A DNA stretch of 64,000 bases from the NCBI GenBank assembly GCA_947501695.1, contig CANMWO010000002.1, positions 637,327 to 701,326 of the forward strand. Direction: 5' to 3'. Under the pieces are notes generated by a model. That model was not told where the DNA came from. It ran no database searches and worked only from the letters and a program-made list of their open reading frames with translations. A program made the position numbers and the translations under genes. This document shows, one piece after another, positions 2 through 27,869 of this stretch. This DNA is from an uncultured Sphingomonadaceae bacterium (GTDB taxonomy: Bacteria; Pseudomonadota; Alphaproteobacteria; Sphingomonadales; Sphingomonadaceae). Position 1 is the stretch's first letter, and every line of letters starts with the position of its first letter.

Positions 2-1393
2 TGGGGACTGTTTCTGCCTGAACCTTCTAGTCTCTTTAACAAGTTATGGGATAGCCATATCGTCACTTCCTTACCGGGTGGTGGCGCATTGGTGGCCATT
101 GATCGCGTGTTTCTGCACGAGCGAACAGGGGCATCAGCGCTCAATTCACTAGCAGAAGCGGAGAGAGCGGTTACCGATCCGGCGCGCGTTTTTGCGGTGA
201 CAGACCATATTGTCGATACCCGCCCGGGACGCACGGACAAGACGTTAATGCCGGGCGGGCAGGCTTTCATTACTGAAACAAGAGCAGCCGCCAAAGTAGC
301 TGGTATTACGCTGTTCGATGTCAACGACCCCGATCAGGGGATTGTCCATGTCATCTCACCGGAGCTCGGCATCGTTTTGCCAGGATGTACGCTGGTAGCG
401 CCGGACAGCCATACTTGTACGCAGGGTGCTTTTGGAGCTCTAGCGTGGGGCATTGGTTCGTCGGAAGCCGAGCATGCGATGGCAACCGGGACATTGCGAC
501 TGAGTAAGCCAAAATCAATGCGCGTTCGTTTCTCGGGTCAGCCTACAAGAGGCGTCACTCCCAAGGATATGATCATGACACTGATCGCCCGCCATGGCGC
601 GGCAGGCGGCAAAGGTCATGCGGTCGAGTTTGCGGGCGAGGCGGTCAGCGCGCTTGATATGGAAGGGCGGATGACGCTCTGCAACATGGCAACGGAATTT
701 TCTGCGATGTCCGGCTTTATCGCCCCTGATGCCAAGGCTTTCGAATATTTGGAAGGTCGGCGCTATGCTCCCAAAGGAACAGATTGGGATCGAGCGGTCG
801 AAAGCTGGAAGCAATTGTCTAGCGATACCGGAGCAGTTTTCGACACTGAAATTGAGATAGATGCCAGTGCCATCACTCCTATGGTCAGTTGGGGGACAAG
901 CCCAGAAAATAGTATCGGCATAAACGGCGTAGTTCCTGATGATGCGGGCGAACGCTCGCTTGAATATATGGCATTGGATAAAGGCCAGAAGCTCGCCGGA
1001 ACATCAATTGATGCGGCGTTTATCGGCAGTTGCACCAACAGCCGTCTATCCGATCTGCGCCGGGCCAGCGCCCTGCTAAAGGGCAAGAAAATTGCCAACC
1101 ATGTCAAAGCCATTTGCGTACCCGGCTCATCCCGCGTCAAACGCGAAGCGGAAGCTGAAGGCATAGATGCAATTTTCCGCGAGGCCGGATTTGAATGGCG
1201 GGAAAGCGGTTGCTCCATGTGTTTCTATGCAGGCGGAGAGAGCTTTGCTCCCGGATCGCGGGTCATTTCAACGACCAACCGAAATTTTGAGAGCCGCCAG
1301 GGGCCCGGCGTTAAAACGCATATCGCCAGTCCCGAAACGGTTGTTGCGAGCGCGCTGGCTGGCGCGATTGCCGATGTACGGGAGTTGATGTGA
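2..1393 (+). CDS. leuC: LeuC-like (iso)propylmalate-type hydro-lyase, large subunit; 5' end outside window
   Basis: Aconitase-superfamily large subunit, [4Fe-4S] dehydratase/isomerase. The iron-sulfur ligands are visible: the Cys in FIGSCTNSR and the pair in ESGCSMC near the C-terminus. The first in-frame start codon inside the window is TTG at 89, but the reading frame is open to base 2 and encodes LFNKLWDSHIV plus a Gly-rich turn, which is the normal LeuC N-terminus. The gene therefore begins left of the window and 463 codons are visible. The motifs IDRVFLHERTG and TDHIVDT differ from the biosynthetic IDRHLVHEVTS and PDHNVPT, so this is a divergent paralogue. Its operon with an aldolase and a CoA-transferase suggests it hydrates or isomerises a substituted C5-C7 dicarboxylate (mesaconate/citramalate or dimethylmalate type) rather than making leucine. 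The substrate is inference. Confidence 0.88.
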   Translation, partial: WGLFLPEPSSLFNKLWDSHIVTSLPGGGALVAIDRVFLHERTGASALNSLAEAERAVTDPARVFAVTDHIVDTRPGRTDKTLMPGGQAFITETRAAAKVAGITLFDVNDPDQGIVHVISPELGIVLPGCTLVAPDSHTCTQGAFGALAWGIGSSEAEHAMATGTLRLSKPKSMRVRFSGQPTRGVTPKDMIMTLIARHGAAGGKGHAVEFAGEAVSALDMEGRMTLCNMATEFSAMSGFIAPDAKAFEYLEGRRYAPKGTDWDRAVESWKQLSSDTGAVFDTEIEIDASAITPMVSWGTSPENSIGINGVVPDDAGERSLEYMALDKGQKLAGTSIDAAFIGSCTNSRLSDLRRASALLKGKKIANHVKAICVPGSSRVKREAEAEGIDAIFREAGFEWRESGCSMCFYAGGESFAPGSRVISTTNRNFESRQGPGVKTHIASPETVVASALAGAIADVRELM

Positions 1394-2010
1394 TGGCTGA
1401 ACCTTTCACCACCCTCACCTCTCTTCCGATGCCGCTGGTCCGCGACAATATCGACACCGATCAGATCATTCCCTCCCGCGAGATGAAAAGCACAGGTAAA
1501 ACTGGCCTTGCCGACGGCTTGTTCGCTGGATGGCGCTATACCGAAATTGATGGACGCGAAGCTGACCCTGATTTCGTGCTCAACGATCCATATTATACTG
1601 ATAGCCAAATCATCCTCGGCGGCACCAATTTCGGCTGTGGATCGAGTCGCGAACATGCGGTCTGGGCTTTGGCCGAATATGGCTTTCGCGCCATCATCGC
1701 GCCCAGCTTTGCACCTATTTTCTCGGGCAACTGCGTTCGCAACGGGATACTCCCAGCCGTGATTGATGCCGATGCTATCGCCATCATCGAAAAGGCCAAC
1801 AGCCCGATCACGCTCGACTTGAGCGCGCAAAAGATTAGCATCGACGAAGGAAAGAGCTGGGCCTTCCCCATCGACGAGGAAGCTAAAGCAATGTTGATCG
1901 AGGGACTCGACGCGATCGACCTCAGTTTGAAAATGGCCAACGACATTGCCACATGGCAAAAGGCCGACCGCGCAAAGCGGCCATGGATATATCTAGGAGC
2001 CAACCAATGA
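1393..2010 (+). CDS. leuD: LeuD-like small subunit of the hydro-lyase
   Basis: Swivel-domain partner of the upstream LeuC-like protein, 205 residues, the usual LeuD length. Motifs seen: NIDTDQIIPSREM near the N-terminus, and GGTNFGCGSSREHAVW followed by FAPIFSGNC, the substrate-recognition loop region of the aconitase swivel domain. The ATG at 1393 shares its first base with the leuC TGA stop (TGATG); a GTG at 1390 is the alternative start. A GGGAG lies just upstream inside leuC. The stop overlaps the next ATG as ATGA, so the two subunits and the aldolase are translationally coupled. Assignment to the family is firm; the substrate is unknown and leucine biosynthesis is not the favoured role given the neighbours. 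Confidence 0.87.
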   Translation: MAEPFTTLTSLPMPLVRDNIDTDQIIPSREMKSTGKTGLADGLFAGWRYTEIDGREADPDFVLNDPYYTDSQIILGGTNFGCGSSREHAVWALAEYGFRAIIAPSFAPIFSGNCVRNGILPAVIDADAIAIIEKANSPITLDLSAQKISIDEGKSWAFPIDEEAKAMLIEGLDAIDLSLKMANDIATWQKADRAKRPWIYLGANQ

Positions 2011-2939
2011 CCTCTACCGTAACGATCAGCGAAGTGGGACCGCGCGATGGTCTGCAAAGCGTCGATGCCGTCATGCCCACTGAAGCAAAAAAAGCGTGGA
2101 TCAGGGCCGAAGCGGACGCGGGCGTGAGCGAGATTGAAGTGGGCAGCTTTGTGCCGCCGTCGCTGCTGCCGCAAATGGCGGATACGGCCGAAATCGTCGC
2201 CTACGCGAAAACACTACCTAGCCTAGATGTTGTGGCGCTAATTCCCAATTTGAAGGGCGCAGAGCGGGCCATTGCAGCGGGTGTCGACAAAATGTCGATC
2301 CCCTTTTCTATGTCCGAAACGCACAGCATCAACAATGTCCGCAAAGATCATCCCGCAATGCTCGCCGAGATCAAGGCAATCGCAGAACTCGTCGCAGCGC
2401 AGCCCGAGGGACAGCGCCCGCATTTTGAGGTTGGTCTGTCCACTGCCTTTGGATGCACAATCGAGGGTCCGGTGAGCGAAGATCAGGTCGCGCGTCTTGC
2501 TGAGGCAGCTATGAACGCCGGTGTGGCCGAAGTCGGCCTGTCTGATACCACCGGCTATGCCAATCCCGCCCAAGTCACTCGCATGGTGCGCCAGATCAAA
2601 TGTGCGATCGGCAGCGATAAACTCAACACCTTGCATCTTCACAACACGCGGGGTCTTGGTCTCGCCAATGTCATGGCCGGGTTAGAGGAAGGAATTACCA
2701 CTTTCGACGCCTCATTAGGTGGCCTTGGCGGCTGTCCCTTCGCGCCGGGCGCGTCGGGTAACATCGTGACGGAGGATCTCGTTTTCATGCTCGAAGCTAT
2801 GGGCATCGATACCGGCATTGATCTCGGCAAGCTTTTGAAAGTTAGAGAAATTATCGCAGAGGCCTTGCCCGGAGAGCCGCTCTATGGGTTTACGCCAGAT
2901 GCCGGCCTTCCTCTGGGATTTGATAAGGCAGCGGCATGA
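2007..2939 (+). CDS. HMG-CoA lyase family aldolase (copy 1)
   Basis: 310-residue DRE-TIM metallolyase that would cleave a 3-hydroxy-acyl-CoA between C2 and C3. Visible motifs: EVGPRDGLQ with Arg13 and Asp14 (catalytic/metal), the metal-binding His210 and His212 in LHLHNTRG, and the HMG-CoA lyase signature GGLGGCPFAPGASGN with the catalytic loop Cys243. The ATG at 2007 overlaps the leuD stop (ATGA) and has AGGAG at 1995-1999; an upstream ATG at 1953 in the same frame would overlap leuD widely and is rejected. The next gene again overlaps by ATGA. In this operon the likely substrate is the CoA thioester of the hydroxy-diacid formed by the LeuCD-like enzyme (inference). A second, different homologue lies at 15097. 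Confidence 0.88.
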   Translation: MTSTVTISEVGPRDGLQSVDAVMPTEAKKAWIRAEADAGVSEIEVGSFVPPSLLPQMADTAEIVAYAKTLPSLDVVALIPNLKGAERAIAAGVDKMSIPFSMSETHSINNVRKDHPAMLAEIKAIAELVAAQPEGQRPHFEVGLSTAFGCTIEGPVSEDQVARLAEAAMNAGVAEVGLSDTTGYANPAQVTRMVRQIKCAIGSDKLNTLHLHNTRGLGLANVMAGLEEGITTFDASLGGLGGCPFAPGASGNIVTEDLVFMLEAMGIDTGIDLGKLLKVREIIAEALPGEPLYGFTPDAGLPLGFDKAAA

Positions 2940-4111
2940 GCACACCGACACCCCTAGCAGGCCTGAAAGTCATTGAATTCACCCACATGGTCATGGGGCC
3001 GGCGGTTGGAGCTATCCTAGCTTCGCTCGGGGCCGAGGTCATCCGCGTCGAGCCGATTGGCGGCGACCGCACACGCAATCTAGTTGGTTCGGGTTCGGGC
3101 TATTTTCCAATGTATAATCGTCATAAGCAGAGCATCTCGCTAAACCTGAAAGACCCGGAAGGTCTGAAGATCGCTCAGCAACTGGTGGCAGATGCGGATA
3201 TTTTGGTCGAAAATTACCGGCCCGGCGCGATGGACAGGCTGGGGCTTGGTTACGAAGCCCTATGCAAGACCAACGAGCGCCTAATCTACGCTTCCGAAAA
3301 AGGTTTCCTCCCCGGCCCTTATGAAAACCGCACTGCCTTGGACGAAGTTGCGCAAATGATGGGCGGACTTGCTTATATGACGGGACCTCCCGGGCAACCA
3401 TTGCGAGCCGGCTCCAGCGTCATCGACGTAACCGGCGGCATGTTCGGCGTGATCGCCATCTTGGCAGCGGTCGAGGAACGCCACCGCACCGGCAAGGGTC
3501 AAAAAGTCCAAAGTTCACTTTTTGAAACAACAGTCTATTTGATCGGCCAGCATATGGCGCAAATGGCAGTGACTGGCAAAGCCGCCGATCCCATGCCTGC
3601 TCGCATTTCCGCGTGGGCAATTTATGATGTGTTTCAAACCAAGGACGAACCCATTTTCATCGGCGTGGTCACCGATGCCTTGTGGGAAAAATTCTGCAAG
3701 CTGTTCGCGCTGGATGATCTATGGGCCGATGAAAGTATCCGCGAGAATAACAACCGCGTCGCCGCGCGCGACCGGATCATGCCCAAAATTCGCGAATTGA
3801 TTTCTGGCTTCGGCCGCGACGAATTGATTGCCAAACTTGAAGGCACAGGCTTGCCCTTTGCACCTATCGCGCGGCCACAGGACATGTTCGATGACCCGCA
3901 TCTCAACGCCAGTGGCGGTCTGGAACCGGTAACGCTAGTCGATGGCGAGCAAACAAAGCTACCCGGTCTTCCCATCGAAATGAATGGGTCGCGACCATCT
4001 AACCCCGCAAAATTGTCTAATATTGGCGAACATAGCGATAGCATATTGGTTGGACTCGGCCTCGATGCCGAACAGATTCGCGCGCTGCGAGATGATGGAA
4101 GTGTTGGCTAG
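2936..4111 (+). CDS. CaiB/BaiF family III CoA-transferase (copy 1)
   Basis: 391 residues, the normal size for family III CoA-transferases, which move CoA between carboxylic acids through an aspartyl-CoA thioester. The candidate catalytic Asp is residue 164 in SVIDVTGG. The usual SGYGQxGPY stretch is replaced by KGFLPGPYENRTALDE, which separates this protein from the second CoA-transferase at 13852 and argues that they use different acids. Last of four genes with 1-4 base overlaps starting at leuC. Likely role: activating the hydroxy-diacid product of LeuCD for cleavage by the adjacent lyase (inference from order; the family assignment is secure). Confidence 0.88.
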   Translation: MSTPTPLAGLKVIEFTHMVMGPAVGAILASLGAEVIRVEPIGGDRTRNLVGSGSGYFPMYNRHKQSISLNLKDPEGLKIAQQLVADADILVENYRPGAMDRLGLGYEALCKTNERLIYASEKGFLPGPYENRTALDEVAQMMGGLAYMTGPPGQPLRAGSSVIDVTGGMFGVIAILAAVEERHRTGKGQKVQSSLFETTVYLIGQHMAQMAVTGKAADPMPARISAWAIYDVFQTKDEPIFIGVVTDALWEKFCKLFALDDLWADESIRENNNRVAARDRIMPKIRELISGFGRDELIAKLEGTGLPFAPIARPQDMFDDPHLNASGGLEPVTLVDGEQTKLPGLPIEMNGSRPSNPAKLSNIGEHSDSILVGLGLDAEQIRALRDDGSVG

Positions 4112-4195
4112 ACCAGTCTTACAAGATCAAAACTAACAGTGCCCAGCCGAGGCAATCTCCCTTATCCTTGCACGTAATAGGGGAGTGTGGTGGCG

Positions 4196-5815
4196 ATGAA
4201 TACAGATGTTCTTATCATTGGAGCAGGTGCGGCAGGGCTGAGTGCAGCCTTGGCCGCGCATGAATCAGGCTCCAGTGTCACCGTCATCGAGAAACAACCC
4301 AAATTGGGCGGCACTGCATCCATATCTGGCGGAATAGTATGGATACCGGGCAATCGGCAGATGCAGGTCCATGGCTTAGAAGACAGCCGGGAAGATGCGC
4401 TGGCCTATTTCCGTTCGCTCGATCAGGGTGATATTGACGATGTTACTCTATCCGCCTTTGTCGAAGAGGGGCCTCAGGCCCTCGCCTTTCTTGAAGACCT
4501 CGATGCTGCACGCCTGAGCCTGCTCGAGGGCTATCCTGACTATTATCTCGATCGGCCCGGAGCCAAGCCAGATGGCGGCCGCGCGCTCGACAACGACTTG
4601 TTCGACTTTACCCAGCTAGGTGCTTGGGCTGGCAAGGTTTTTGAACACGGCCCCGCGCCGCGCATGTTATTGCGGGAAACCCCACTTGGCGGTGGAACTG
4701 GACAAGTTGATCCGGCCGAGATGGCCCGCCGTGAAGCTGGCGATTTACGCGGCTGGGGACAGGCGTTGATCGGACGATTGCTGAAAGCTTGCCTCGACCG
4801 GGATATAGAACCTTTGCTGAATGTCGGCGGCTACCGTCTGCTCGTCGAAAACGGCCGGGCTACCGGGGCAACTGTGCGCAAAGATGGTAAGGATTTAACG
4901 ATCCATGCGAAACAAGGTGTAATCCTAGCCACAGGCGGTTTTGAATGGAACGAGGAGCTTAAACAGACTTTTCTGCGTGGACCGCTGGATGCACCAGCGT
5001 CTCCACCCGGCAATCAGGGTGATGGTCTGAAAATGGCGATGGCCGCTGGCGCCAGCCTTGGCAATATGACCAGCGCCTGGTGGGTACCAACCCTATCCAT
5101 ACCAGAGGTAAAATGGGAAGGCGGTGCACAACGCGCCATGCCGGTGCTGATCGAGCGAACCCTGCCGCACACGATCATGGTCAACGGGGCGGGCAAACGC
5201 TTTTGCAACGAAGCCAATAATTATTCCGCCCTTGCAGGCGCGTTTCACCAATTTGATCCTGCCACTTACTCTCACCCCAATTTACCAGCTTATCTGATTT
5301 TCGATTCTCAATATCTGTCGCGCTATCCGCTTGCCTCGGTCATGCCTGGCACGCCGGTGCCCGCATGGATAAACAGCGCGGATGATTTGGAAAGCCTTGG
5401 TAAGGCGATCGGTATTGACGGGATACAGCTCGAAGAAACGGTCAACCATTTCAACGCCCATGCGATCAAGGGGCACGACCCCGATTTTGCTCGTGGCGAG
5501 AGTGCTTATGATCGGTTTTACGGCGATCGCTCGCGAGATGGCGCTTCGGCGACATTGGGTCCAATTACCAACGGCCCCTTCTACGCAGTAGAAATTAAAA
5601 TGGGGACGCTCGGTACAAATGGCGGCGCCAAAACAGATGGATCGGCGCAAGTGCTGGATCTCGACGGAGAGCCCATTCCCGGTCTGTTCGCCGCTGGCAA
5701 TGTCATCAGCTGCCCGACCGGCGGCGTCTATGCGGGGGCGGGTGGCACGCTCGGCCCGGCTTTGACCTTTGGATATATAGCCGGGCGCGCGGCGGCGCGG
5801 CGAATCAACAGCTGA
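4196..5815 (+). CDS. FAD-dependent oxidoreductase, KstD / fumarate reductase flavoprotein family
   Basis: 539 residues. The N-terminal dinucleotide fold is DVLIIGAGAAGLSAA, followed by an EKQPKLGGT segment that binds the FAD ribose. A C-terminal GLFAAGNV plus GGVYAGAGGTLG closes the FAD site, as in 3-ketosteroid delta1-dehydrogenases and soluble fumarate reductases. Such enzymes introduce or reduce a C=C next to a carbonyl or carboxylate. I chose ATG 4196; GTG codons at 4187 and 4190 are in frame behind a GGGGAG at 4179-4184. It lies 84 bases after the CoA-transferase on the same strand and is probably in the same operon. No signal peptide, so cytoplasmic. The substrate cannot be deduced. Confidence 0.82.
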   Translation: MNTDVLIIGAGAAGLSAALAAHESGSSVTVIEKQPKLGGTASISGGIVWIPGNRQMQVHGLEDSREDALAYFRSLDQGDIDDVTLSAFVEEGPQALAFLEDLDAARLSLLEGYPDYYLDRPGAKPDGGRALDNDLFDFTQLGAWAGKVFEHGPAPRMLLRETPLGGGTGQVDPAEMARREAGDLRGWGQALIGRLLKACLDRDIEPLLNVGGYRLLVENGRATGATVRKDGKDLTIHAKQGVILATGGFEWNEELKQTFLRGPLDAPASPPGNQGDGLKMAMAAGASLGNMTSAWWVPTLSIPEVKWEGGAQRAMPVLIERTLPHTIMVNGAGKRFCNEANNYSALAGAFHQFDPATYSHPNLPAYLIFDSQYLSRYPLASVMPGTPVPAWINSADDLESLGKAIGIDGIQLEETVNHFNAHAIKGHDPDFARGESAYDRFYGDRSRDGASATLGPITNGPFYAVEIKMGTLGTNGGAKTDGSAQVLDLDGEPIPGLFAAGNVISCPTGGVYAGAGGTLGPALTFGYIAGRAAARRINS

Positions 5816-8282: not shown

Positions 8283-8912
8283 CTAGAGCTTTAGTCCGTT
8301 CAAATAATCCAATAGTGCGGCGCTCGGCATAACGTCGGCATATTTTGCCTGCATATCGAACAAATTGGCCTGATGCGGCGCTTCATGCCGGTCGCCAACC
8401 GCATCTTCGGCGATGATTGGGATGAAACCATGCGAAGAACAGTCGACACAGCTCGCCCGCACACAACCGCTGGTCGACAGGCCGGTAATGATCAGACTGT
8501 CATTGCCATTAGCGGTCAGGGTTGATGCGAGAGACGTACCAAAAAAAGCGCTCGGATAATGTTTGGTGATGATCAGTTCATCGTCCGCTGGCTCCAGCCC
8601 CTTGGGCCATGCCCCCATTGGATGCCCTGCGACAAAATTTTCAAGCGGCGGGACTTTCTGGGCAAAGCGTCCGCCCTCAATCATCGACTTGGTATAGCTC
8701 ACATTGGTATAGATGATCAGCAGACCCGCCTTACGCGCCGCGTCGCGGAGCCGAAGAGCATTTTCCAACGCATCCTCAACGCCAGCGTAGAGCGCGCAGG
8801 ACGGATCAAAATAGGCTTCGACGAAATCAATGAGAATGAGCGCAGGCTTTGCACCAAACCCCATTGATCCGTCGAAGACCCCCCCGTAATTATCCGCTGT
8901 ATCGCCTGTCAT
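8283..8912 (-). CDS. Isochorismatase-fold amidohydrolase (N-carbamoylsarcosine / maleamate amidase-like)
   Basis: 209 residues with the catalytic triad of cysteine hydrolases of this fold: Asp29 in LILIDFVEAYF, Lys117 in IITKHYPSAFFGT and Cys150 in LSTSGCVRASCVD. A cis-peptide-type TSG precedes the Cys. The N-terminal LIDFVEAY resembles N-carbamoylsarcosine amidase more than isochorismatase. The start lies 3 bases after the stop of the TonB receptor, so the two are co-transcribed. With HyuA/HyuB and a hydantoin-racemase homologue in the same island, it probably removes ammonia or a carbamoyl group from an opened-ring intermediate (inference). Confidence 0.82.
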   Translation of the reverse strand: MTGDTADNYGGVFDGSMGFGAKPALILIDFVEAYFDPSCALYAGVEDALENALRLRDAARKAGLLIIYTNVSYTKSMIEGGRFAQKVPPLENFVAGHPMGAWPKGLEPADDELIITKHYPSAFFGTSLASTLTANGNDSLIITGLSTSGCVRASCVDCSSHGFIPIIAEDAVGDRHEAPHQANLFDMQAKYADVMPSAALLDYLNGLKL

Positions 8913-11441: not shown

Positions 11442-11499
11442 ATTAAATACCTTCCCTGGATGGAATAGTTTGCAGGCCTTTTGACCCGTCAAATTGGTT

Positions 11500-13081: not shown

Positions 13082-13112
13082 AATAGTTGACAAATCTCCC
13101 TACTGCACTTCT

Positions 13113-15033: not shown

Positions 15034-15080
15034 TAAAAAACCTCCTGCATGATGCTTTTGCTATACAAAGCACATTATGG

Positions 15081-15092: not shown

Positions 15093-15096
15093 TTCT

Positions 15097-18105: not shown

Positions 18106-18106
18106 A

Positions 18107-19972: not shown

Positions 19973-20075
19973 CCAACGCCGTCAAATACTGGCCATTCTA
20001 TTAGTGGCCGTTCTGTTAGTGGACTTCCCTTTTGCCGCCGATAATCTAGGCGTCAAAGGAGAGGTTTTCTTATGA
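19959..20075 (+). CDS. Possible 38-residue single-pass membrane peptide
   Basis: A small open frame starts at an ATG inside the last codons of hyuB, in another frame, and ends with a TGA that overlaps the ATG of the downstream SDR (ATGA). The predicted peptide has a basic start (NQRRQ), one hydrophobic helix (ILAILLVAVLLVDFPF) and a polar tail (ADNLGVKGEVFL). No Shine-Dalgarno is seen, so translation would rely on coupling to hyuB. The topology, the overlap at both ends and the absence of any other content in the gap support a real gene; chance cannot be excluded. Confidence 0.42.
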   Translation: MSPLNQRRQILAILLVAVLLVDFPFAADNLGVKGEVFL

Positions 20076-20845
20076 GTATTTTGAACAATTTCAAACTGGA
20101 GGGCGACATTGCTGTCGTCACAGGAGCAGGCAAAGGCATTGGCCGAGCGATTGCGTTAGGCTTGGCTGAGGCCGGTGCAGATGTAGCACTGGCCGCTCGT
20201 ACTGCGGGTGATCTTGAGACAGTCGCAGAAGAAATTCGTGCCCTTGGCCGCCGCGCCATAACCGTCGCTACCGACGTCACGGATATGACTGCGCTGGAGC
20301 ATCTGGCACAGCGGACGGTTGATGAACTGGGTAAGCTGACAATCTGGGTCAGCAATGCCGGCGGCCTGCCTGATGGAACACCGCGCTATCTGACCAAAAC
20401 CTCAGAAGATAATTGGGATGCACAGATTGATCTCAATCTAAAAAGCGTCTGGATGGGCGCGGTCGTTGCCGCCAAACATATGAAAGATGATGGTGGCGCG
20501 ATCATTAACACGTCGTCCCGCGCCTCCTTTGGCGGGCAAGTGAAAAACGGCCCCTATGGTGCCTCGAAGGCGGCAGTGAACAGCCTGACCAGCACCTTGT
20601 CATTGGAACTCGCGCCTAAGATCCGAGTCAACGCGGTTGCCCCGGGTCCAATCCCGACTGAAAACTTCGATGAATCCATGGGAATAAAATCCGATGAGGA
20701 TCGCGAGAATTTGCTTAAACATATTGGCGTTCCGCTGGGGCGTTATGGCAAGGAAGAGGATATTGCCGCAGCGGTCATCTATATGGCCTCGCCGGCGGCC
20801 AGCTGGGTCACCGGCCAATGTCTGTTCGTAACCGGAGGACGCTAA
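20072..20845 (+). CDS. SDR-family NAD(P)-dependent oxidoreductase 1
   Basis: 257 residues, classical short-chain dehydrogenase. Cofactor motif TGAGKGIG (17-24), the NAG motif in VSNAGG, catalytic Ser in NTSSRAS and YGASK with the Tyr/Lys pair, then the VAPGPIPTEN segment. Most similar in pattern to 7-alpha-hydroxysteroid dehydrogenase-type SDRs. AAAGGAGAGG precedes the ATG with ideal spacing. It follows hyuB by 99 bases and probably belongs to the same transcript. It should oxidise or reduce a hydroxyl/keto group of a pathway intermediate; the substrate is unknown. Confidence 0.87.
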   Translation: MSILNNFKLEGDIAVVTGAGKGIGRAIALGLAEAGADVALAARTAGDLETVAEEIRALGRRAITVATDVTDMTALEHLAQRTVDELGKLTIWVSNAGGLPDGTPRYLTKTSEDNWDAQIDLNLKSVWMGAVVAAKHMKDDGGAIINTSSRASFGGQVKNGPYGASKAAVNSLTSTLSLELAPKIRVNAVAPGPIPTENFDESMGIKSDEDRENLLKHIGVPLGRYGKEEDIAAAVIYMASPAASWVTGQCLFVTGGR

Positions 20846-20909
20846 AGGAAAGATTGCGGGCAGCGTCCAAACTGGACTAGTATCTATGAAACAATAGATT
20901 GCGGCGCGC

Positions 20910-21872
20910 TTGAACAATATATTTCCGATATTCCAGTTTCTGAAAGAAAAATCCTCGGCAGGCCTTGGCTGCGCTCTGGTAAGTTTGACAGCGGTAACAG
21001 GCGCCTCTACCCGCAATCCCGGAGCCCATATGGCAGTTGCAGCAGACGGCAGCTCCGTCGGATCCTTTTCCGGCGGTTGCATTGAAACCGCCGTCATTGC
21101 CGAGGCCTTGGAGTGCCTCACCGCTAATGAACCACGCGAAGTCCGTTTTGGTGCAGGCTCGCCATATCTCGACATTCGCTTGCCTTGTGGCGGCGGCATT
21201 GATTTGCTGTTCAGTCCCCTGCGCAATGCGGGGATCGCTGAGGAACTGTTTGATGCCGTCTCGGCAAGGCAGCCCTTTACCATCAGCATGGATAGTAAAA
21301 CGGGTACCATCACCAGTGCACCGGCCGAACAAGATCTAGCCGTTGTTCGAGATGGATCAGCGGTTCACATCAACCACATTCCAGCCGCTAAAATCATAAT
21401 CCTCGGTCATGGTGCTGTTGTTGAAAATCTGACCAATCTTACGGCATCCTATGGCCTCGACTGCGAAATATTGACGCCGGATTTGGACATAGTGGACCGC
21501 ATTACCAGAGAGGGTGGCACGGCTCATAGGCTTAAAACACCAGCGGCTACCGATCTCTATCAAGCCGATCCTTGGACGGCATGTGTCTTTTATTTTCATG
21601 ACCATGACTGGGAAGCGCAACTGATGAAGCAGGCACTGGCTTCATCAGCCTTTTATATTGGCGCAATGGGTAGTTTCAAAACCCACAACACTCGCAAGAC
21701 TTTGCTTAGCGAAGTAGGCGTCAGCGACGCGGCGATTAAGCGGATGAAAGCACCTGTCGGCATCATTCCGTCGACGCGCGACCCCGCCACTCTGGCGCTA
21801 TCCACGCTAACCGAAATAATTGAAACTTATCACAGCCGTTTCAGCCGTACCCATGGCACCATCGCCTTATAA
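20910..21872 (+). CDS. xdhC: XdhC/CoxF-family molybdenum-cofactor maturation factor
   Basis: 320 residues. N-terminal XdhC/CoxI domain (VTGASTRNPGAHMAV, VGSFSGGCIE) and C-terminal Rossmann domain (IIILGHGAVV, YIGAMGS, APVGIIPSTRDPATLALS). XdhC-type proteins bind, sulfurate and insert Moco into xanthine-oxidase-family hydroxylases. The only standard start is TTG 20910, since an in-frame TAG lies at 20895. No molybdenum hydroxylase is in this island; the nearest is the IorAB pair at 35304. Its 3' end overlaps the convergent SDR by 6 bases. It may serve the distant enzyme or one outside the window. Confidence 0.83.
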   Translation: MNNIFPIFQFLKEKSSAGLGCALVSLTAVTGASTRNPGAHMAVAADGSSVGSFSGGCIETAVIAEALECLTANEPREVRFGAGSPYLDIRLPCGGGIDLLFSPLRNAGIAEELFDAVSARQPFTISMDSKTGTITSAPAEQDLAVVRDGSAVHINHIPAAKIIILGHGAVVENLTNLTASYGLDCEILTPDLDIVDRITREGGTAHRLKTPAATDLYQADPWTACVFYFHDHDWEAQLMKQALASSAFYIGAMGSFKTHNTRKTLLSEVGVSDAAIKRMKAPVGIIPSTRDPATLALSTLTEIIETYHSRFSRTHGTIAL

Positions 21873-22637
21873 ACACTGACCGTCATCGACTGTTATGTCA
21901 GACCCGGTCATAGCCTGCGAAACATCTGACGAAAGATATAGCATCATTGAATCGAGCGATGACATGTCTTGCAACCGCCGCCGATGGAAACCGGCTATCT
22001 GGCGCCGACCACCTTCGGTTTGATACCAGTCGCCCTGTATTTCGGTCGCGATATAGCCGGGATGGATGGTGTTCACATTCACCCCCTGCCGCACCCACTC
22101 ACGCGCCAGATTGCGGCCGAGATGGGTAACACCGGCTTTGCTCGCAGCATAAGCGCTGTCTCCCTCGCCAGTCAGCCGCGACGTAATCGATCCGATGATT
22201 GTAATCCGGCCGTTTTCCTTGGCCCGGCTGTCGCTGGCGATGAGGCGCTTGGCTCCCTCACGGGCCACGAGATATACCCCGATAAAGTTTGTGCCGATAA
22301 GGTTCTGCAAACCTTCAAGGGGCACATCGGTCGAGCGTCCCGCAGCACTGACTCCAGCATTAGCGACGATTGAATCGACCACACCAAATTTCGCCTCCGC
22401 TGTATCATAAGCAGCGATGACAGATGCCTCATCCGTTACGTCGAGAGGCACCGCCAACGCATTGCCACCCGCCGCAATTATCTTGTCCGCCACTTCCGCT
22501 GTCCGATCCGTTCGCCGCGCGCCCAAAACGACGTTGGCGCCTGCCGCCGCGAACAGCTCCGCGAAATGCGCGCCAAGACCCGATGATGCGCCCGCGATTA
22601 GAGCGGTCCGGCCCGCGAGTGAGAATGGAATGTCCAT
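21867..22637 (-). CDS. SDR-family NAD(P)-dependent oxidoreductase 2
   Basis: 256 residues, classical SDR. Motifs: AGASSGLG at the cofactor site, VANAGVS, IGSITSR with the catalytic Ser, YAASKAG with Tyr/Lys and IHPGYIATE. The C-terminus GSDITVDDGQ is typical. Divergent from SDR 3 across a 123-base gap, and convergent with xdhC. The extended GDWYQTEGGRRQ region after the PG motif matches the variable substrate-binding loop. Substrate unknown; the alternative is an acetoacetyl-CoA reductase-like role. Confidence 0.86.
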   Translation of the reverse strand: MDIPFSLAGRTALIAGASSGLGAHFAELFAAAGANVVLGARRTDRTAEVADKIIAAGGNALAVPLDVTDEASVIAAYDTAEAKFGVVDSIVANAGVSAAGRSTDVPLEGLQNLIGTNFIGVYLVAREGAKRLIASDSRAKENGRITIIGSITSRLTGEGDSAYAASKAGVTHLGRNLAREWVRQGVNVNTIHPGYIATEIQGDWYQTEGGRRQIAGFHRRRLQDMSSLDSMMLYLSSDVSQAMTGSDITVDDGQCL

Positions 22638-22760
22638 ATTTTATCCTCTGGATTATGCGTTATTATAATCGGCTCTAGACCATCACGTTCTGCTCAGCCA
22701 ATATCGCTTTGCATAGGGCTCATCGAAGAAGTGGGTCGATACACAAGGGAGAAGATAGAT

Positions 22761-23501
22761 ATGATCGACGCGTCGCTCAATTATGAAGGCAAGATAGTTT
22801 CCATCATTGGGGGCTCCAGCGGAATTGGTAATGCCACCGCACAAGCCTTTCGCAAATGCGGGGCGCAAGTTCATGTCACTGGTACGCGCGGAAGTGCTGA
22901 TGATTATTCCAAAGACGAAGGCTCTGACCTGAAAGGCCTGCATTATGCTCAGGTGGATGCCGCCGACGATATGGCCATTACAGCCTATCGACAGACTTTT
23001 TCTAAACTTGACGTTTTGATCTGCTCGCAAGGCATGGTGCTATATAAACGCGCAGAATTTGAACCCGAGAATTTTGCTAAGGTTATCCAGGTCAATCTCA
23101 ACAGCTTGATGACCTTTGCCGGACAATTTCATGATCTTTTGAAGGAAGCACGAGGTTCGCTGATCATAATTAGTTCCACCGCCGCCTTTCATGCGACTGT
23201 GGGCAACCCCGCCTATAATGCGTCGAAGACAGGTGCCATGGGCCTGACCCGAACTTTGGGCAAGGCGTGGGCGCCTGACGGTATCCGCGTGAACGGCATC
23301 GCGCCCGGGCTTATCGCAACAAAGATGACAGCTGTGACAACCGAGAACCCGAAACGCCGGGAAGCGACCACCAGAAATATCCCCGTCGGCCGGATTGGCG
23401 ACCCGGACGATATGGCAGGGCTATCGCTATTTCTTGCCTCCCCATTGGCGCGCTATGTCGTCGGACAGACGCTAATCGCTGATGGTGGATTGTTGTTGTG
23501 A
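22761..23501 (+). CDS. SDR-family oxidoreductase 3
   Basis: 246 residues, classical SDR with IIGGSSGIG at the cofactor site, ICSQGM replacing the usual NAG motif, ISSTAAF with catalytic Ser, YNASKTG and IAPGLIATKM. The change of Asn-Ala-Gly to Ser-Gln-Gly is unusual because the Asn takes part in the proton relay. ATG 22761 has GGGAGAAG upstream; an in-frame ATG at 22731 is less likely. The stop overlaps the next gene (TGATG). Confidence 0.84.
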   Translation: MIDASLNYEGKIVSIIGGSSGIGNATAQAFRKCGAQVHVTGTRGSADDYSKDEGSDLKGLHYAQVDAADDMAITAYRQTFSKLDVLICSQGMVLYKRAEFEPENFAKVIQVNLNSLMTFAGQFHDLLKEARGSLIIISSTAAFHATVGNPAYNASKTGAMGLTRTLGKAWAPDGIRVNGIAPGLIATKMTAVTTENPKRREATTRNIPVGRIGDPDDMAGLSLFLASPLARYVVGQTLIADGGLLL

Positions 23502-24052
23502 TGATCCGCCGAAACAGAGTGAAGACCGCAGCGGCCCTTTTATTCCTAGTGGCTGCAGCTCCTTTATACGCGGTTAGCCAGGAAGATTACCGTTACGACC
23601 AATATAGTAACTCTACCGATTGCGGGGATCGCAAGCCACTGACAGAAAAAGAGCAGATAGGATTATCCCGCTCTGGTGATCCTATACGGATCCTTACCAT
23701 GACAGGCACTGCGGCCGAAAAGAACGAAACCGCGCACTGGATGGTGTTGCTCGTCGAGAAAACTCCTTTAAATAAAGCGATGGATTTTCCTACCGAACGC
23801 TGCGCCAGCAAAGTCGTGCTACAAATGTCTGATGGCAGAGAATTTCGTGGCCTTTTGGAATATACAGATCGGTCTGGCGAGGTTGAACATCGCGGACGTT
23901 CCTATCGGGTACTGTTTGAAACGGGCAGTCCCATTCCCGAACTTCGCTATGACTATGGCGGTTATCGGATTGACGGACATCTCAGCTATCCCGAACATGG
24001 CGATAAACCTCGGCCCTTTGCCGGTTGGTGGCTGATGGTTGAACGGGACTAA
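23501..24052 (+). CDS. Exported protein of unknown function
   Basis: 183 residues with a clear signal peptide (RRNRVK, then AAALLFLVAAAPLYA and a cleavage site near VSQ). The mature part has two cysteines, near STDCGDR and ERCASK, that could form a disulfide in the periplasm. I do not recognise a family. ATG 23501 overlaps the stop of SDR 3 (TGATG), so it is translationally coupled to it. Convergent with the MFS gene. Confidence 0.65.
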   Translation: MIRRNRVKTAAALLFLVAAAPLYAVSQEDYRYDQYSNSTDCGDRKPLTEKEQIGLSRSGDPIRILTMTGTAAEKNETAHWMVLLVEKTPLNKAMDFPTERCASKVVLQMSDGREFRGLLEYTDRSGEVEHRGRSYRVLFETGSPIPELRYDYGGYRIDGHLSYPEHGDKPRPFAGWWLMVERD

Positions 24053-24110
24053 GAACATCGCTGGTAAAAAAATTGTCGGACAGAGGATAATGGCAGATTG
24101 CTGCTGTAGC

Positions 24111-25400
24111 TCAAACTAGGGCAGGCTCATCATGCACTGCTTTACCGGTCCACCAGAACATTATCGCTGCCATGATCAGGCTGAAAACCACAGTTACAAT
24201 AACGGCATAGCTGAGCGACATCTTGTCATAAGCATCGGCCCAATTGTCACTCATCATGCCGATAAGTGCGGGGCCGATACCATAGCCTAGCAGGTTGATC
24301 GACAGGCTGCTGATCGAAGATGCCGTTCCGCGTTCTGACGGCAATACAGAGGATTGCACCATTGATATGGCAGCACCCTGAGTTGAAACCAGCAGAACAT
24401 AGCCGATAATGTAGAGCGCGAGAGTCATTTCCAAACTGCCGGCAAGCAGGCAATAGGTCCAGAACGGCAAGGTCAACAATACCGCAACACCGCAATACCA
24501 TGGCCGCCATTTGGGGTTTTTCGTCGCCAGATAGTCAGCCAGATATCCACCCAAAATCATGCCAGGAACGCCGGCAACGAACAAAGCTGCGCCAAGATAA
24601 ACACCAACTTCGCCCTGGGTTACGTCATAATTGCGGATTAGCGTGGGTGCCAGCCAGATAGCAAAAGCGAATGATGGAATATTGGTAAAGGAATTTGCCA
24701 AAACGACGCGAAAGAAAACGCTGTTCTTCCAGAGCGATCGCATAGTGACCATGAACGGCTGTTGCGTGTTCGCCTCGGTTTGCTGATCATCTGCTATGAA
24801 ATAACGGCCGCGCTTTGGTTCCCTGACCGTGAAATAGAGGATGACGCCCAGCAAAACCCCCGGCAAGCCCAAAATTATGAAAGTCCAGCGCCATCCGTAA
24901 ACCTCCGCGATCAGGCCGCCCGCTGCATAGCCGAGCACAGGACCCAATACCGCCCCGACAGCAAATATGCCCATCGCGCGTGACAATTCATGTGGCGCGA
25001 AATAATCCGTAATGATTGAGACCGAAGGCGGTCCCCCTCCTGCCTCGCCAACGCCGACACCTAGGCGAGCCAATAGCAATGTCCAGAAACCAACCGCAGC
25101 GCCGCAGAGAGCGGCCATCAGGCTCCACAAGGACAAGGCCATTGCAACCATATTTTTCCGGTTTGTACGATCCGCTAAACGGCCCGCAGGAATTCCGAGG
25201 AGCAAGTAAAAGGCGGTAAAGGCAGTTCCCGCCAGCAAACCAATTTGCGTGTCGCTTAACAGAAACTCCGCTTTAATGTCCTCGATCAGGATCGACATAA
25301 CCAGCCGGTCAGTGATGTTGAACATGAAGGTAAGCATCAGCATGATCAGCACATAATAACGGTAGATACCGCCAGTGCTTGATGTCGCCTGATCAGCCAT
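24111..25400 (-). CDS. MFS transporter, spinster-like
   Basis: 429 residues, about 12 hydrophobic helices. The loop 2-3 signature is AGRLADRTNRKN and the helix 4-5 region reads GVGVGEAGGGPPSVSIITDYF, both typical of spinster-type major facilitator carriers common in sphingomonad catabolic islands. ATG 25400 has AGGAGG at 8 bases; an in-frame ATG at 25406 sits too close to it. A terminator for the upstream acyl-CoA dehydrogenase pair lies just before it, so this gene probably has its own promoter. Likely inner-membrane carrier for the island's substrate after TonB-dependent uptake (inference). Confidence 0.88.
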   Translation of the reverse strand: MADQATSSTGGIYRYYVLIMLMLTFMFNITDRLVMSILIEDIKAEFLLSDTQIGLLAGTAFTAFYLLLGIPAGRLADRTNRKNMVAMALSLWSLMAALCGAAVGFWTLLLARLGVGVGEAGGGPPSVSIITDYFAPHELSRAMGIFAVGAVLGPVLGYAAGGLIAEVYGWRWTFIILGLPGVLLGVILYFTVREPKRGRYFIADDQQTEANTQQPFMVTMRSLWKNSVFFRVVLANSFTNIPSFAFAIWLAPTLIRNYDVTQGEVGVYLGAALFVAGVPGMILGGYLADYLATKNPKWRPWYCGVAVLLTLPFWTYCLLAGSLEMTLALYIIGYVLLVSTQGAAISMVQSSVLPSERGTASSISSLSINLLGYGIGPALIGMMSDNWADAYDKMSLSYAVIVTVVFSLIMAAIMFWWTGKAVHDEPALV

Positions 25401-25437
25401 ATGCATTCCCTCCTAAAGGAACACAATGGATAGCGTG

Positions 25438-25475
25438 AAAAAGGGGGTGCAGCCAGCCTGACTGCACCCCCTTTT
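25438..25475 (-). terminator. Rho-independent terminator of the acyl-CoA dehydrogenase operon
   Basis: Perfect 10-base stem GGGGGTGCAG (25443-25452) and CTGCACCCCC (25462-25471) with a 9-base loop, flanked by five A on the left and four T on the right. On the minus strand it ends in five T, 24 bases past the stop at 25499. The symmetry would allow weaker termination on the plus strand as well. Confidence 0.88.
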
Positions 25476-25498
25476 ATGATAGGGTTATGGAACCTGCT

Positions 25499-26638
25499 TT
25501 AAGCAGCAGCAGTCAGTTTAATATGACGCCGCATATGATGATCGACGCTGCCGAATTCGCCTTCGATAATCGACAGCCGTTTGAAATAGCTGCCGACAGC
25601 GGTTTCATCAGTCACGCCCATGCCGCCATGGGTTTGAACCGCTGACTGGCCAACAAAGCGTGCCGATTGCCCGACACGAACCTTGGCCGAAGAGACCGCA
25701 TGCTTGCGTTCCGCTTCGCCTTCATCCAGCTTGATTGTGGCAAGATAGGACATGGAAATAGATTGCTCATATTCCATGAACATGTCGACCATGCGGTGCT
25801 GAAGCACTTGGAAGGTGCTGATGGGAACGCCGAACTGCTTGCGCTGCTTGGCATATTCTAATGTCATCGCATGTGTAACTTGCATAGCGCCGGTTGCCTC
25901 TGCGCAAACAGCGACTGTTGCTTCATCAACAACCGTCTCAATAAGCGGCAGACCATTGTCCAGCTCTCCAATCAAAGCATCAGCCGATACCGAAACATTC
26001 TCAAAATAGACTTCCGAAGCACGGCGGCCATCGACAGTTGCATAGTCACGCAAGCTGACGCCAGCGGCATCTTTGGCAATGATAAACACAGACACACCGT
26101 TCTGATCAGCTTGCCCGCCCGAGGTACGCGCTGTCACGACGAAATGGCTCGCCCATGGCGCGCCAATCACAACCGCTTTCTGGCCATTCAATGTATAGCC
26201 TTCGCCATCTTTCTTCGCTGTAGTCGTCAAGTTCGCCAGATCATAGCGGCCCTGCGGCTCCGCATAAGCAAAAGCAAAAACTTTCTCACCAGCGATGATC
26301 GCGCTGAGATATTCTTCTTTTTGCGCTGCTGTTCCGGCATGTTTCAGGAAGCCGCCAGCACAAACAACACTGGGGATAAACGGCTCGACCACAAGGCCTT
26401 TGCCGAATTCTTCCATGATCAGCATGGTTTCCACCGCACCGCCACCAAAGCCACCATCTTCTTCCGAAAACGGCGCGGCTAGCATACCAAGCTCGGCCAG
26501 TTGTGCCCAAAATTCGGGGCTCCAGCCAGCATCACTGGCGATTATGCCACGCCGCGTGTCCCAGTCATATTGTTCCCGTACTAGCCGTGAAATACCGTCA
26601 CGAACCATATTTTGTTCGTCAGAAAAATTGAAATCCAT
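25499..26638 (-). CDS. Acyl-CoA dehydrogenase, smaller partner
   Basis: 379 residues, acyl-CoA dehydrogenase fold: N-terminal helical domain (FSDEQNMVRDGISRLV), middle beta domain (AYAEPQGRYD), and C-terminal helical domain with LEYAKQRKQFGVPI, QTHGGMGVTDE and IIEGEFGSVDHH. The EG in IIEGE corresponds to the MCAD catalytic-base position (IYEGT), so this subunit probably carries the base. It is 34 bases downstream of the second dehydrogenase and the pair probably forms a heteromer, as in steroid-degrading bacteria (inference). It would introduce an alpha-beta double bond into a CoA thioester. Confidence 0.88.
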   Translation of the reverse strand: MDFNFSDEQNMVRDGISRLVREQYDWDTRRGIIASDAGWSPEFWAQLAELGMLAAPFSEEDGGFGGGAVETMLIMEEFGKGLVVEPFIPSVVCAGGFLKHAGTAAQKEEYLSAIIAGEKVFAFAYAEPQGRYDLANLTTTAKKDGEGYTLNGQKAVVIGAPWASHFVVTARTSGGQADQNGVSVFIIAKDAAGVSLRDYATVDGRRASEVYFENVSVSADALIGELDNGLPLIETVVDEATVAVCAEATGAMQVTHAMTLEYAKQRKQFGVPISTFQVLQHRMVDMFMEYEQSISMSYLATIKLDEGEAERKHAVSSAKVRVGQSARFVGQSAVQTHGGMGVTDETAVGSYFKRLSIIEGEFGSVDHHMRRHIKLTAAA

Positions 26639-26672
26639 AGTTTCGCTTTCTTATAGTTTTTTGCGGTTGGAT

Positions 26673-27869
26673 CTAAAGTCCGAGAACCATTTTGGTGATG
26701 ATGTTACGCTGAATCTCGTTGGATCCACCGTAAATCGATGTCTTGCGCATGTTGAAATAGGTCGGTGCCGCGCTGTGCGCATAGTCCGGCCCAATCGGGA
26801 AGTCATTCGAGCCATCGGCTGGGAAACTGCGGAAATCAGGCGTACCATAATGGCCAACCGCTTCCAGAGTGAGTTCCGTCAGGCGTTGCTGAATTTCCGT
26901 ACCCTTCACTTTCAGCAAAGAACTTTCAGGGCCCGGGCCTTTGCCCGCCTGCTCACCAGCCAGTGTCCGCAACTCGGTAATTTCCAGTGCCGCGAGATCA
27001 ATTTCCAGCTGGCTTATTTTCGTTGCAAAACCCATGTCCTGAATAAGGGGCTCGCCATCCAGCATCTCATGCTTGGCAATATCTTTCAGCTGCTCGACAC
27101 CCCGCTTGGAGCGAGCCACGCCGGCTATGCCCGAGCGTTCATGCGCGAGCAGGAACTTCGCATAGGTCCAGCCTTTATTCTCTTCGCCAATCAGGTTCTC
27201 CGCTGGCACACGTACATCGGTGAGCCAGACTTCGTTGACCTCATAGCCGCCGTCGATCAACTTGATCGGGCGCACTTCAATGCCTGGAGTATTCATATCC
27301 ACGAGGATGAAGCTGATACCCTGTTGCGGCTTAGGCGCATCGGGATCGGTGCGGCATAGGAAGAAACCCCAATCCGCATGCTGCGCCAATGTCGTCCAGG
27401 TTTTCTGACCGTTAAGAATATAGTCATCGCCATCGCGAACAGCGGTGGTTTTGAGCGATGCGAGATCGGAACCAGCGCCCGGCTCTGAATAGCCCTGACA
27501 CCACCACACATTACCACTTTTAATGCCGGGCAGATGCTTTGCTTTCTGCTCTTCATTACCAAAAGTATAGATAACCGGACCAACCATCGCGACGCCAAAT
27601 GGTAGCGGCATTACAGCATTGACCCGCGCGTTTTCTTCTGACCAGATATAGCGCTGTGTCGGGGTCCAGCCAGTTCCTCCATATTGCTCGGGCCAAGCCG
27701 GAACGGACCAGTTTTTTTCGCCGAGAATCTTATGCCAAGCGGTCATATCTTCAGGGGTCATATCATCCTGAACAGCCGCACGTTCGATATTCTGGGGGTA
27801 GTTATTCTCGATAAAGCTACGCACTTCATCACGAAATGCATTTTCCTCTGCGGTAAATTCCAAGTTCAT
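26673..27869 (-). CDS. Acyl-CoA dehydrogenase, larger partner
   Basis: 398 residues. N-terminal helices FTAEENAFRDEVRSFIE, middle domain WCQGYSEPGAGSDLASL and WTTLAQHADWGFFLCR, C-terminal HERSG, and IYGGSNEIQRNI. At the MCAD catalytic Glu position (IYEGT) there is Gly (IYGGS), so the base is either elsewhere or supplied by the partner gene. ATG 27869 has GGAGAG upstream; an in-frame ATG at 27911 is not needed by the family alignment. First gene of the pair, preceded by an inverted repeat at 27891-27912. Confidence 0.88.
   Translation of the reverse strand: MNLEFTAEENAFRDEVRSFIENNYPQNIERAAVQDDMTPEDMTAWHKILGEKNWSVPAWPEQYGGTGWTPTQRYIWSEENARVNAVMPLPFGVAMVGPVIYTFGNEEQKAKHLPGIKSGNVWWCQGYSEPGAGSDLASLKTTAVRDGDDYILNGQKTWTTLAQHADWGFFLCRTDPDAPKPQQGISFILVDMNTPGIEVRPIKLIDGGYEVNEVWLTDVRVPAENLIGEENKGWTYAKFLLAHERSGIAGVARSKRGVEQLKDIAKHEMLDGEPLIQDMGFATKISQLEIDLAALEITELRTLAGEQAGKGPGPESSLLKVKGTEIQQRLTELTLEAVGHYGTPDFRSFPADGSNDFPIGPDYAHSAAPTYFNMRKTSIYGGSNEIQRNIITKMVLGL

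Follow-up and report, generated by a model that had tools for sequence, protein, structure and literature searches.

Two Probable Catabolic Cassettes Side by Side

We analyzed a stretch of 64,000 nucleotides from contig CANMWO010000002.1 (hereafter the window), which is part of the 3.6-Mb genome of an uncultured sphingomonad. Gene content and comparison with related genomes make it moderately probable that the window contains the junction of two independent catabolic cassettes, each dedicated to cyclic imides or ureides. The complete one, module B, comprises ten genes (8286-19969) for a TonB-dependent receptor, two SnoaL-like proteins, a protein resembling Asp/Glu/hydantoin racemases, a GntR-family regulator, a family III coenzyme A (CoA)-transferase, a homolog of 3-hydroxy-3-methylglutaryl (HMG)-CoA lyase, the two subunits of an ATP-dependent cyclic-amide hydrolase (HyuAB), and an isochorismatase-type amidase. 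Within the window, module A consists of LeuCD, lyase, and CoA-transferase genes, from the left edge to 4108. The larger island to which it belongs, as the rightmost part, lies mostly outside the window and also contains two PuuE-like hydrolases and a second amidase (table 1). Families were assigned with Pfam and NCBIfam profiles, and solved relatives are the nearest proteins of known structure by sequence.

An initial annotation of positions 2-27869 had proposed a single catabolic regulon in which the same idea is realized twice by non-identical enzymes. The gene content that it listed was confirmed by Pfam and NCBIfam, and the repetition is real: a cyclic-amide hydrolase, an amidase, a CoA-transferase, and a lyase are found in both modules, with counterparts that are 30-36% identical or unrelated. 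The two lyases share 36% and the two CoA-transferases 30% identity; therefore, a recent local duplication of the pair was ruled out. The same inferred reaction chain would thus have been built twice from different enzymes, all of which, judged by profile matches, belong to known families.

Predicted Chemistry of Module B

The gene content of both modules fits the earlier suggestion of a ring-containing substrate that is opened, activated with CoA, and split. In each module, two C-N bonds would be cut in turn, the resulting acid would be charged with CoA, and the chain would be split by an HMG-CoA-lyase-type enzyme. Module B would act as a ten-gene uptake-and-degradation regulon. Its TonB receptor may import a ready-made cyclic imide or ureide, HyuAB would open the ring in an ATP-dependent reaction, and the amidase would take off the second nitrogen. 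The racemase-like/SnoaL/SnoaL trio might then isomerize or hydrate the product, before CoA-transferase 2 forms the CoA ester and lyase 2 makes a retro-aldol/Claisen cut to yield an acyl-CoA and an oxo acid.

Several similarities are consistent with these assignments. The nearest solved relative of both HyuA and HyuB is N-methylhydantoinase (7hk5), followed by 6yra, and the ATPase motifs DVGGTFTD and DVGGTSTD are present. The amidase is closest to N-carbamoylsarcosine amidohydrolase (26st), followed by 3ot4. An Asp-Lys-Cys triad characterizes the N-carbamoylsarcosine amidase/maleamate amidase group, and all three corresponding motifs were found in the module B amidase. Lyase 2 has HMG-CoA lyase 1ydo as its nearest solved relative. 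Both lyases pass the PRK05692 subfamily cut-off and carry the motifs of the HMG-CoA lyase family, namely RD, HxH (HxHN in copy 1 and HxHD in copy 2), and the loop cysteine of GLGGCP. For the lyases, CoA-transferases, HyuAB, LeuC, and the module B amidase, every family motif that was sought is present.

A Racemase Fold without Catalytic Cysteines

The racemase-like protein has both the family profile and the fold of Asp/Glu/hydantoin racemases. Its structural model (predicted local distance difference test, pLDDT, 90) matches allantoin racemase best, with a template modeling (TM) score of 0.83. In these racemases, a pair of cysteines carries out two-cysteine catalysis. The cysteine pair is absent here, with T86 at the first site and S194 at the second. 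The LGSTTM motif at the second site is invariant in alignments of 25 and 26 rows, and S194 is invariant in an alignment of 15 rows, whereas the first site is Thr or Ser across the alignments of racemase-like proteins. Most of the more distant copies also have the Thr/Ser plus Ser motif pair; a few rows have other letters or no pattern match, Cys occupies the second site in two distant matches (29-33% identical), and where Tistrella and Neorhizobium have tandem copies, the pair is absent from the second one. By these alignments, the protein is a member of a subfamily that lacks both catalytic cysteines, and such a fold poses a clean mechanistic question.

The AlphaFold2 model of SnoaL 2 has a ketosteroid-isomerase/limonene-epoxide-hydrolase fold, and a fold search with it returned the general NTF2/ketosteroid-isomerase fold only. 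Its listed open reading frame (ORF) overlaps both neighbors, so translation may be coupled. The racemase-like ORF overlaps with the SnoaL genes, and in two records all three genes are found with no HyuAB nearby; the three proteins thus presumably form a complex. A plasmid search with SnoaL 2 gave no matches.

Relatives of the racemase-like gene were seen in other settings as well. Three loci of one alphaproteobacterial family (L193, L194, and L200) have two to three tandem racemase-like genes and two cysteine hydrolases, together with relatives of genes flanking the island (an FAD-linked oxidase in all three, an alpha/beta hydrolase in two, and a methyltransferase in L194); these gene sets suggest a wider catabolic network. 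In L190, L191, and a 13-27 kb region of a plasmid of Novosphingobium sp. EMRT-2 (L058), a racemase-like relative lies amid Rieske-oxygenase-like and NTF2-like genes, and the plasmid region additionally has an acetamidase/formamidase.

Module A and Its Island

Module A would follow the same plan as module B, with the two PuuE-like hydrolases, the second amidase, a LeuCD-type hydratase, CoA-transferase 1, and lyase 1. The genes reported for the left module are indeed there, but the module is cut by the window: the leuC frame crosses the left edge, and its likely start is about 7 bases to the left. The start at 2007 given for lyase 1 agrees with an in-frame ATG within the listed ORF (1953-2936). 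The LeuC-like protein passed two LeuC subfamily models and scored 500.9 bits, compared with 560.25 for the leuC equivalog cut-off. Another LeuCD pair is encoded at C2:222996, with a LeuC 48-50% and a LeuD 35% identical to those of module A. Given the score below the cut-off and the other pair in the genome, a leucine-synthesis function for the module A pair was ruled out.

Among 296 genomes of the order, 50 have relatives of lyase 1 at an E-value of 1e-90 or better, and 20 loci (19 from these 50 genomes, plus G142) were fetched for comparison. LeuC and LeuD were each found in 16 of the 20. The PuuE-like hydrolases and the second isochorismatase-type amidase each occur in 15, as does an aldehyde dehydrogenase, although not always in the same 15 as the hydrolases and amidase. 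The left flank of the window has the same PuuE-like, amidase, and aldehyde dehydrogenase genes. For the two flank hydrolases, PuuE allantoinase was the only NCBIfam match, at 100.6 and 108.8 bits versus 424.6; by these scores they are PuuE-like proteins and not PuuE. For the second hydrolase, PuuE (3cl6) is among the closest proteins of known structure. The flank amidase is nearest to N-carbamoylsarcosine amidohydrolase; its K and C motifs were found, and the simple Asp pattern had no match.

The left island extends over about 50 kb (contig C2, about 587-637 kb; loci L225, L226, and L003) and is marked by TTGTCCGGACAA sites. It contains two further TonB receptors. The part of the island to the left of the PuuE-like hydrolases and second amidase encodes a third polysaccharide-deacetylase-family protein (the two PuuE-like hydrolases being the others), an amidase, two MmgE/PrpD proteins, two additional CoA-transferases, a MaoC protein that matches the mesaconyl-CoA-hydratase model, and a citrate-lyase-type lyase.

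Imides or Ureides as Probable Substrates

The nitrogen enzymes of both modules resemble N-methylhydantoinase, N-carbamoylsarcosine amidase, and PuuE allantoinase, and we lean toward imides and ureides, taken jointly, as the substrate class. Known aconitase-type hydratases act on cis-dicarboxylates, and such acids are formed when maleimide-type rings are hydrolyzed. Module A has a hydratase of this type, which is our principal reason for preferring imides to hydantoins.

Clusters around relatives of the racemase-like gene give partial support. In Neorhizobium, the relative occurs with HyuAB, a cysteine hydrolase, MmgE/PrpD, a FAD_binding_2 protein, and a phosphoenolpyruvate (PEP)-mutase/isocitrate-lyase-type protein. 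In Rhizobium rhizoryzae, it is found with a PuuE-like gene, LeuCD, a PEP-mutase/isocitrate-lyase-type lyase, a FAD protein, and MmgE/PrpD, and in Tistrella with MmgE/PrpD, a lyase of the same type, and a FAD protein. These clusters look like a related task performed with a CoA-independent lyase. The row on the R. rhizoryzae plasmid (L155, 1-13 kb) also has a branched-chain-type ATP-binding cassette transporter and two racemase-like genes, and is possibly a CoA-free counterpart of module A.

The chief competing explanation is a narrower form of the imide-or-ureide reading, whose probability overlaps with it: the substrates may be hydantoins only. HyuAB would then convert a 5-substituted hydantoin into an N-carbamoyl amino acid, the amidase would remove the carbamoyl group, the racemase-like protein would set the stereochemistry, and the lyase would cut what is left. 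The module B nitrogen enzymes are indeed closest to N-methylhydantoinase, N-carbamoylsarcosine amidase, and hydantoin/allantoin racemase. However, the racemase-like protein lacks both catalytic cysteines, and the LeuCD, MmgE/PrpD, and isocitrate-lyase-type genes of module A and of the Neorhizobium and Rhizobium clusters suggest branched dicarboxylates, which are better explained by imides. We regard a restriction to hydantoins as tentative and rather unlikely.

Distribution and Synteny of Module B

To examine the distribution of module B, 199 genomes of the family were searched with the racemase-like protein. Matches at an E-value of 0.001 or better were obtained in 25 genomes, and 15 of them, including the source genome, matched with at least 72% identity. 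The neighborhoods in the 14 further module B genomes were compared by tblastn. All ten genes are present in ten of these genomes and nine genes in another two (G089 without the amidase and G072 without lyase 2); G173 has five, and in G174 the module lies at a contig end. The ten-gene set was absent in the four weaker matches examined (46-51% identity).

A second sample consisted of 80 loci of 100 relatives in named genomes, at least six of which are the same records as genomes of the first comparison; the racemase-like gene is present in them by construction. We counted the 58 loci of at least 20 kb and dropped the 22 shorter ones, applying identity thresholds of 40-70% depending on the gene. 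All ten genes were found in 42 of the 58, and at least nine in 55. Genera represented among the 80 loci include Erythrobacter, Porphyrobacter, Blastomonas, Novosphingobium, Croceicoccus, Altererythrobacter, and Parasphingorhabdus, and the racemase-like protein is 95% identical in P. marina and 93% in P. flavimaris, which suggests that the source genome belongs near Parasphingorhabdus. A self-contained unit with its own receptor and palindrome in Erythrobacter, Porphyrobacter, Blastomonas, Novosphingobium, and Parasphingorhabdus would point to a shared nitrogen-ring nutrient, and module B is small enough to be deleted and tested.

Different Palindromes Mark the Two Modules

The palindrome TTGTATACAA occurs twice in module B, at window positions 13114 and 15082. 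WTTGTATACAAW has exactly two sites in the whole genome, at the same two places in module B, compared with none for the reversed control pattern. In 10 of the 14 further module B genomes all exact sites are likewise inside the module; the reversed control had no site in ten of the 14 and one site in four. The 80 loci contain 127 exact copies of TTGTATACAA, whereas 19 other palindromes composed of the same letters average 0.47; a site with no more than one mismatch is present in 77 of the 80 loci. We infer that the GntR protein binds this palindrome and that WTTGTATACAAW is probably its operator; acting at the two TTGTATACAA sites, the regulator would control module B only. If lyase 2 starts at 15097, the second site falls in the gap that separates this start from that of CoA-transferase 2; if it starts at 15049, the site is inside the lyase ORF.

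Module A has a different signal. TTTGTCCGGACAAA is located between its divergent operons, and in 14 of the 20 module A loci the same interval, flanked by the second amidase and an alpha/beta hydrolase, contains an exact TTGTCCGGACAA. In total, these loci have 23 exact copies of TTGTCCGGACAA, whereas 59 control palindromes average 0.05. If one mismatch is allowed, the source genome has ten sites (two for the control), seven of them at 589-636 kb of the contig, to the left of the window. No operator shared by both halves of 2-27869 was found: WTTGTATACAAW is restricted to module B, and TTGTCCGGACAA marks module A.

Relationship between the Two Modules

Several observations weigh against two independent, self-contained cassettes for imides or ureides. 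No known hydratase or inner-membrane carrier is conserved among the module B genes. The module B amidase, found in 43 of the 58 long loci, is missing in 15, and may be dispensable, replaced, or diverged. Lyase 2 was not found nearby in L079 and L130; in several lineages it and CoA-transferase 2 are only 52-63% identical, so these slots may have been refilled. The racemase-like/SnoaL trio was seen without HyuAB nearby in L127 and L137 (the latter the same record as L187). Among labeled genes, neither HyuAB nor a cysteine hydrolase is found in the Rhizobium cluster, and a cyclic-amide hydrolase is absent from the Tistrella cluster. As for module A, 3 of the 20 loci (L220, L222, and L223) have the lyase/CoA-transferase pair alone or with the aldehyde dehydrogenase, without LeuCD or the amide hydrolases. 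Regarding the palindromes, both were first noticed in the window genome and then tested elsewhere; the only exact site in G030, G113, and G173 (one genus) is on another contig, away from the module, and G174, with its module at a contig end, has none. Finally, the two modules tend to occur together. With the second PuuE-like gene as a marker, module A was detected in 34 of the 199 family genomes, comprising 9 of the 15 module B genomes and 25 of the 184 others (Fisher P = 1e-4, phylogeny ignored); a search of the 15 with CoA-transferase 1 identified the same nine.

This association, together with the presence of module A (lyase 1 and CoA-transferase 1 at 70% identity or more) within 10 kb of module B in 10 of the 58 long loci, favors the view of the initial annotation that both halves are needed for one substrate in one pathway. 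On the other side, 6 of the 15 module B genomes have no module A marker at the thresholds used, and LeuCD, lyase 1, and CoA-transferase 1 lie beside module B only in G153 and the source genome. Where both modules are present, they are adjacent in two genomes and apart in seven of the nine. At the genus level the association decreases to 6 of 9 module B genera versus 20 of 87 (P = 0.011, again with phylogeny ignored), and one of the six shared genera has the two modules in different genomes. The initial annotation had named separate occurrence and independent regulation of the halves as what would speak against it, and with the halves mostly apart elsewhere and carrying different conserved palindromes, the result is largely against a single regulon. 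We consider a single pathway improbable. The modules can be separated, although the same bacteria often carry both, and the over-representation of module A in module B genomes makes a looser functional link between them possible.

Genes between and around the Modules

The racemase-like protein (12332-13093), the GntR regulator (13179-13847), XdhC, the FAD_binding_2 oxidoreductase, and the PhoX-family protein had not been named in the initial annotation, and its amidohydrolase, a gene that does exist, is probably an isochorismatase-family protein. The FAD_binding_2 gene was found at 60% identity or more in 15 of the 58 long module B loci and adjoins HyuB in G089, L074, L078, L080, and L124; a PF00890 search of the source genome revealed nothing further. 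The PhoX-family protein had no NCBIfam match, and an NmrA-family gene is also among the Pfam matches in the window. At 60% identity or more, the flank at 20072-27911 is genus-specific among the compared neighborhoods, with eight of eight genes in G153 and six of eight in G089, which lacks XdhC and the 184-aa protein. Beyond it (28025-33723) are RDD, SpoIIM-like, DUF58, and MoxR genes and a 480-aa protein without a Pfam match; the segment from RDD to MoxR is syntenic in G153 and forms the right edge of the island.

Table 1. Features of the Window, with Positions Counted from Its First Nucleotide
Feature	Position	Strand	Evidence or remark
LeuC-like aconitase-family large subunit	89..1390	+	PF00330, E 1.5e-147; GSCTN and GCSMC present
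LeuD-like small subunit	1390..2007	+	PF00694; LeuD model passed
HMG-CoA-lyase homolog 1	2007..2936	+	PF00682; above PRK05692 cut-off; motifs kept
Family III CoA-transferase 1	2936..4108	+	PF02515; GSSVID motif
FAD_binding_2 flavoprotein	4187..5812	+	PF00890; accessory gene of the genus, beside either module
PhoX-family protein, between modules	6906-8264		Pfam family match; in 6/58 long module B loci
Isochorismatase-type cysteine amidase	8286..8912	-	PF00857; D, K, and C motifs present
TonB-dependent receptor	8919..11513	-	PF00593, PF07715; in 57/58 long loci
SnoaL/NTF2-like protein 1	11503..11898	-	PF12680; alignment
SnoaL/NTF2-like protein 2	11901..12338	-	PF12680; AlphaFold2 model, pLDDT 87
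Asp/Glu/hydantoin-racemase-fold protein lacking both catalytic cysteines	12332..13093	-	PF01177, E 7.2e-29
Probable GntR operator 1, around ATTGTATACAAA	13112..13125	.	Divergent racemase-like/GntR promoter
GntR-family regulator with FCD domain	13179..13847	+	PF07729, PF00392
Family III CoA-transferase 2	13855..15033	-	PF02515; GLSIGD motif
HMG-CoA-lyase homolog 2	15049..16014	+	PF00682; start at 15049 or in-frame ATG at 15097
Probable GntR operator 2, around ATTGTATACAAT	15080..15093	.	Near starts of CoA-transferase 2 and lyase 2
HyuA, ATP-dependent cyclic-amide hydrolase subunit	16048..18102	+	PF01968, PF05378
HyuB subunit	18068..19969	+	PF02538
Short-chain dehydrogenase/reductase (SDR) 1, XdhC, SDR2, SDR3, 184-aa protein, major facilitator superfamily carrier, two acyl-CoA dehydrogenases	20072..27911		Pfam

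Less Probable Substrates

A bolder proposal is that modules A and B, together with the left island, perform late steps of bacterial tetrapyrrole (chlorophyll, heme, or bilin) breakdown, which we regard as speculative and improbable. The stable end products of tetrapyrroles are dialkylmaleimides with two kinds of side chain. If the proposal were true, each kind would need its own imide opener, amidase, hydratase, CoA-transferase, and lyase, hence two sets in parallel, and the cysteine-less racemase fold would form with the SnoaL pair a new type of isomerase/hydratase complex whose substrate is the cis-diacid. Module B is more common with photosynthetic reaction-center genes (8/15 vs. 25/184 genomes; Fisher P = 7e-4, confounded by phylogeny); both are found in one genome in only four of the nine module B genera, and the genus of the window has no reaction-center genes.

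HyuAB and CoA-transferases also occur in anaerobic auxin breakdown. Module B might therefore open a hydroxylated oxindole-type lactam, after which the CoA-transferase and the lyase would produce acetyl-CoA and an aryl-glyoxylate; the 2-hydroxysuccinyl-CoA intermediate would suit the HMG-CoA-lyase fold. However, no Rieske, flavin monooxygenase, or anthranilate genes are among the ten module B genes, a simple lactam needs no separate amidase, and the enzymes of the iad auxin pathway of Variovorax differ from those of module B, so that this explanation is doubtful in the extreme. Least probable of all is a role of HyuAB as a ketone carboxylase (acetophenone/acetone type) that supplies a beta-keto acid to the CoA-transferase and lyase: subunits of acetophenone and acetone carboxylase, members of the same superfamily, were matched, but HyuA scores higher against N-methylhydantoinase (475 bits) and 6yra (413 bits) than against the carboxylases (329 and 228 bits), and the neighboring amidase would be left unexplained.

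Comparison with Known Systems

The initial annotation knew of no pathway with this set of genes, and no match was found in the full-text literature searched, most subscription journals being outside its scope. Auxin degradation through iad genes was considered for HyuAB and the CoA-transferases and ruled out on gene content. The iad pathway employs a Rieske system, an acyl-CoA synthetase, a thiolase, an alcohol dehydrogenase, and a formamidase-like enzyme (PMC12633357). The Variovorax locus thus resembles module B in combining the opening of a nitrogen ring with CoA activation, whereas its enzymes are different, and its CoA steps were themselves inferred from annotation (PMC12633357). Neither the Rieske genes IadCDE nor downstream iad genes were found in the Pfam tables of the window and the left flank.

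The N-methylhydantoin (creatinine) pathway is similar in its nitrogen enzymes, as its hydantoinase and N-carbamoylsarcosine amidohydrolase are the nearest solved relatives of HyuAB and the module B amidase. To our knowledge, that pathway has no CoA-transferase, HMG-CoA-lyase homolog, SnoaL pair, cysteine-less racemase fold, or TonB receptor. Caprolactamase CapAB provided the best NCBIfam models for HyuA and HyuB (553 and 222 bits), but both scores are far below the equivalog cut-off of 1000 bits.

For the racemase-like protein, the atypical fungal Asp/Glu racemase family member OpaE (9qbx) is a named precedent. It is among the ten best fold matches of the model (TM 0.75), although the two proteins are only 18% identical and were compared by fold only.

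Parallels to module A are the tail of nicotinate fermentation and the mesaconate/citramalate route, in which an aconitase-family hydratase acts first and a C-C bond of a branched malate is then cleaved. The nicotinate tail uses dimethylmaleate hydratase and dimethylmalate lyase, whereas module A has a CoA-transferase and an HMG-CoA-lyase fold instead. The likeness extends to the rhizobial clusters, where Rhizobium combines LeuCD, and Neorhizobium MmgE/PrpD, with a relative of isocitrate lyase/PEP mutase.

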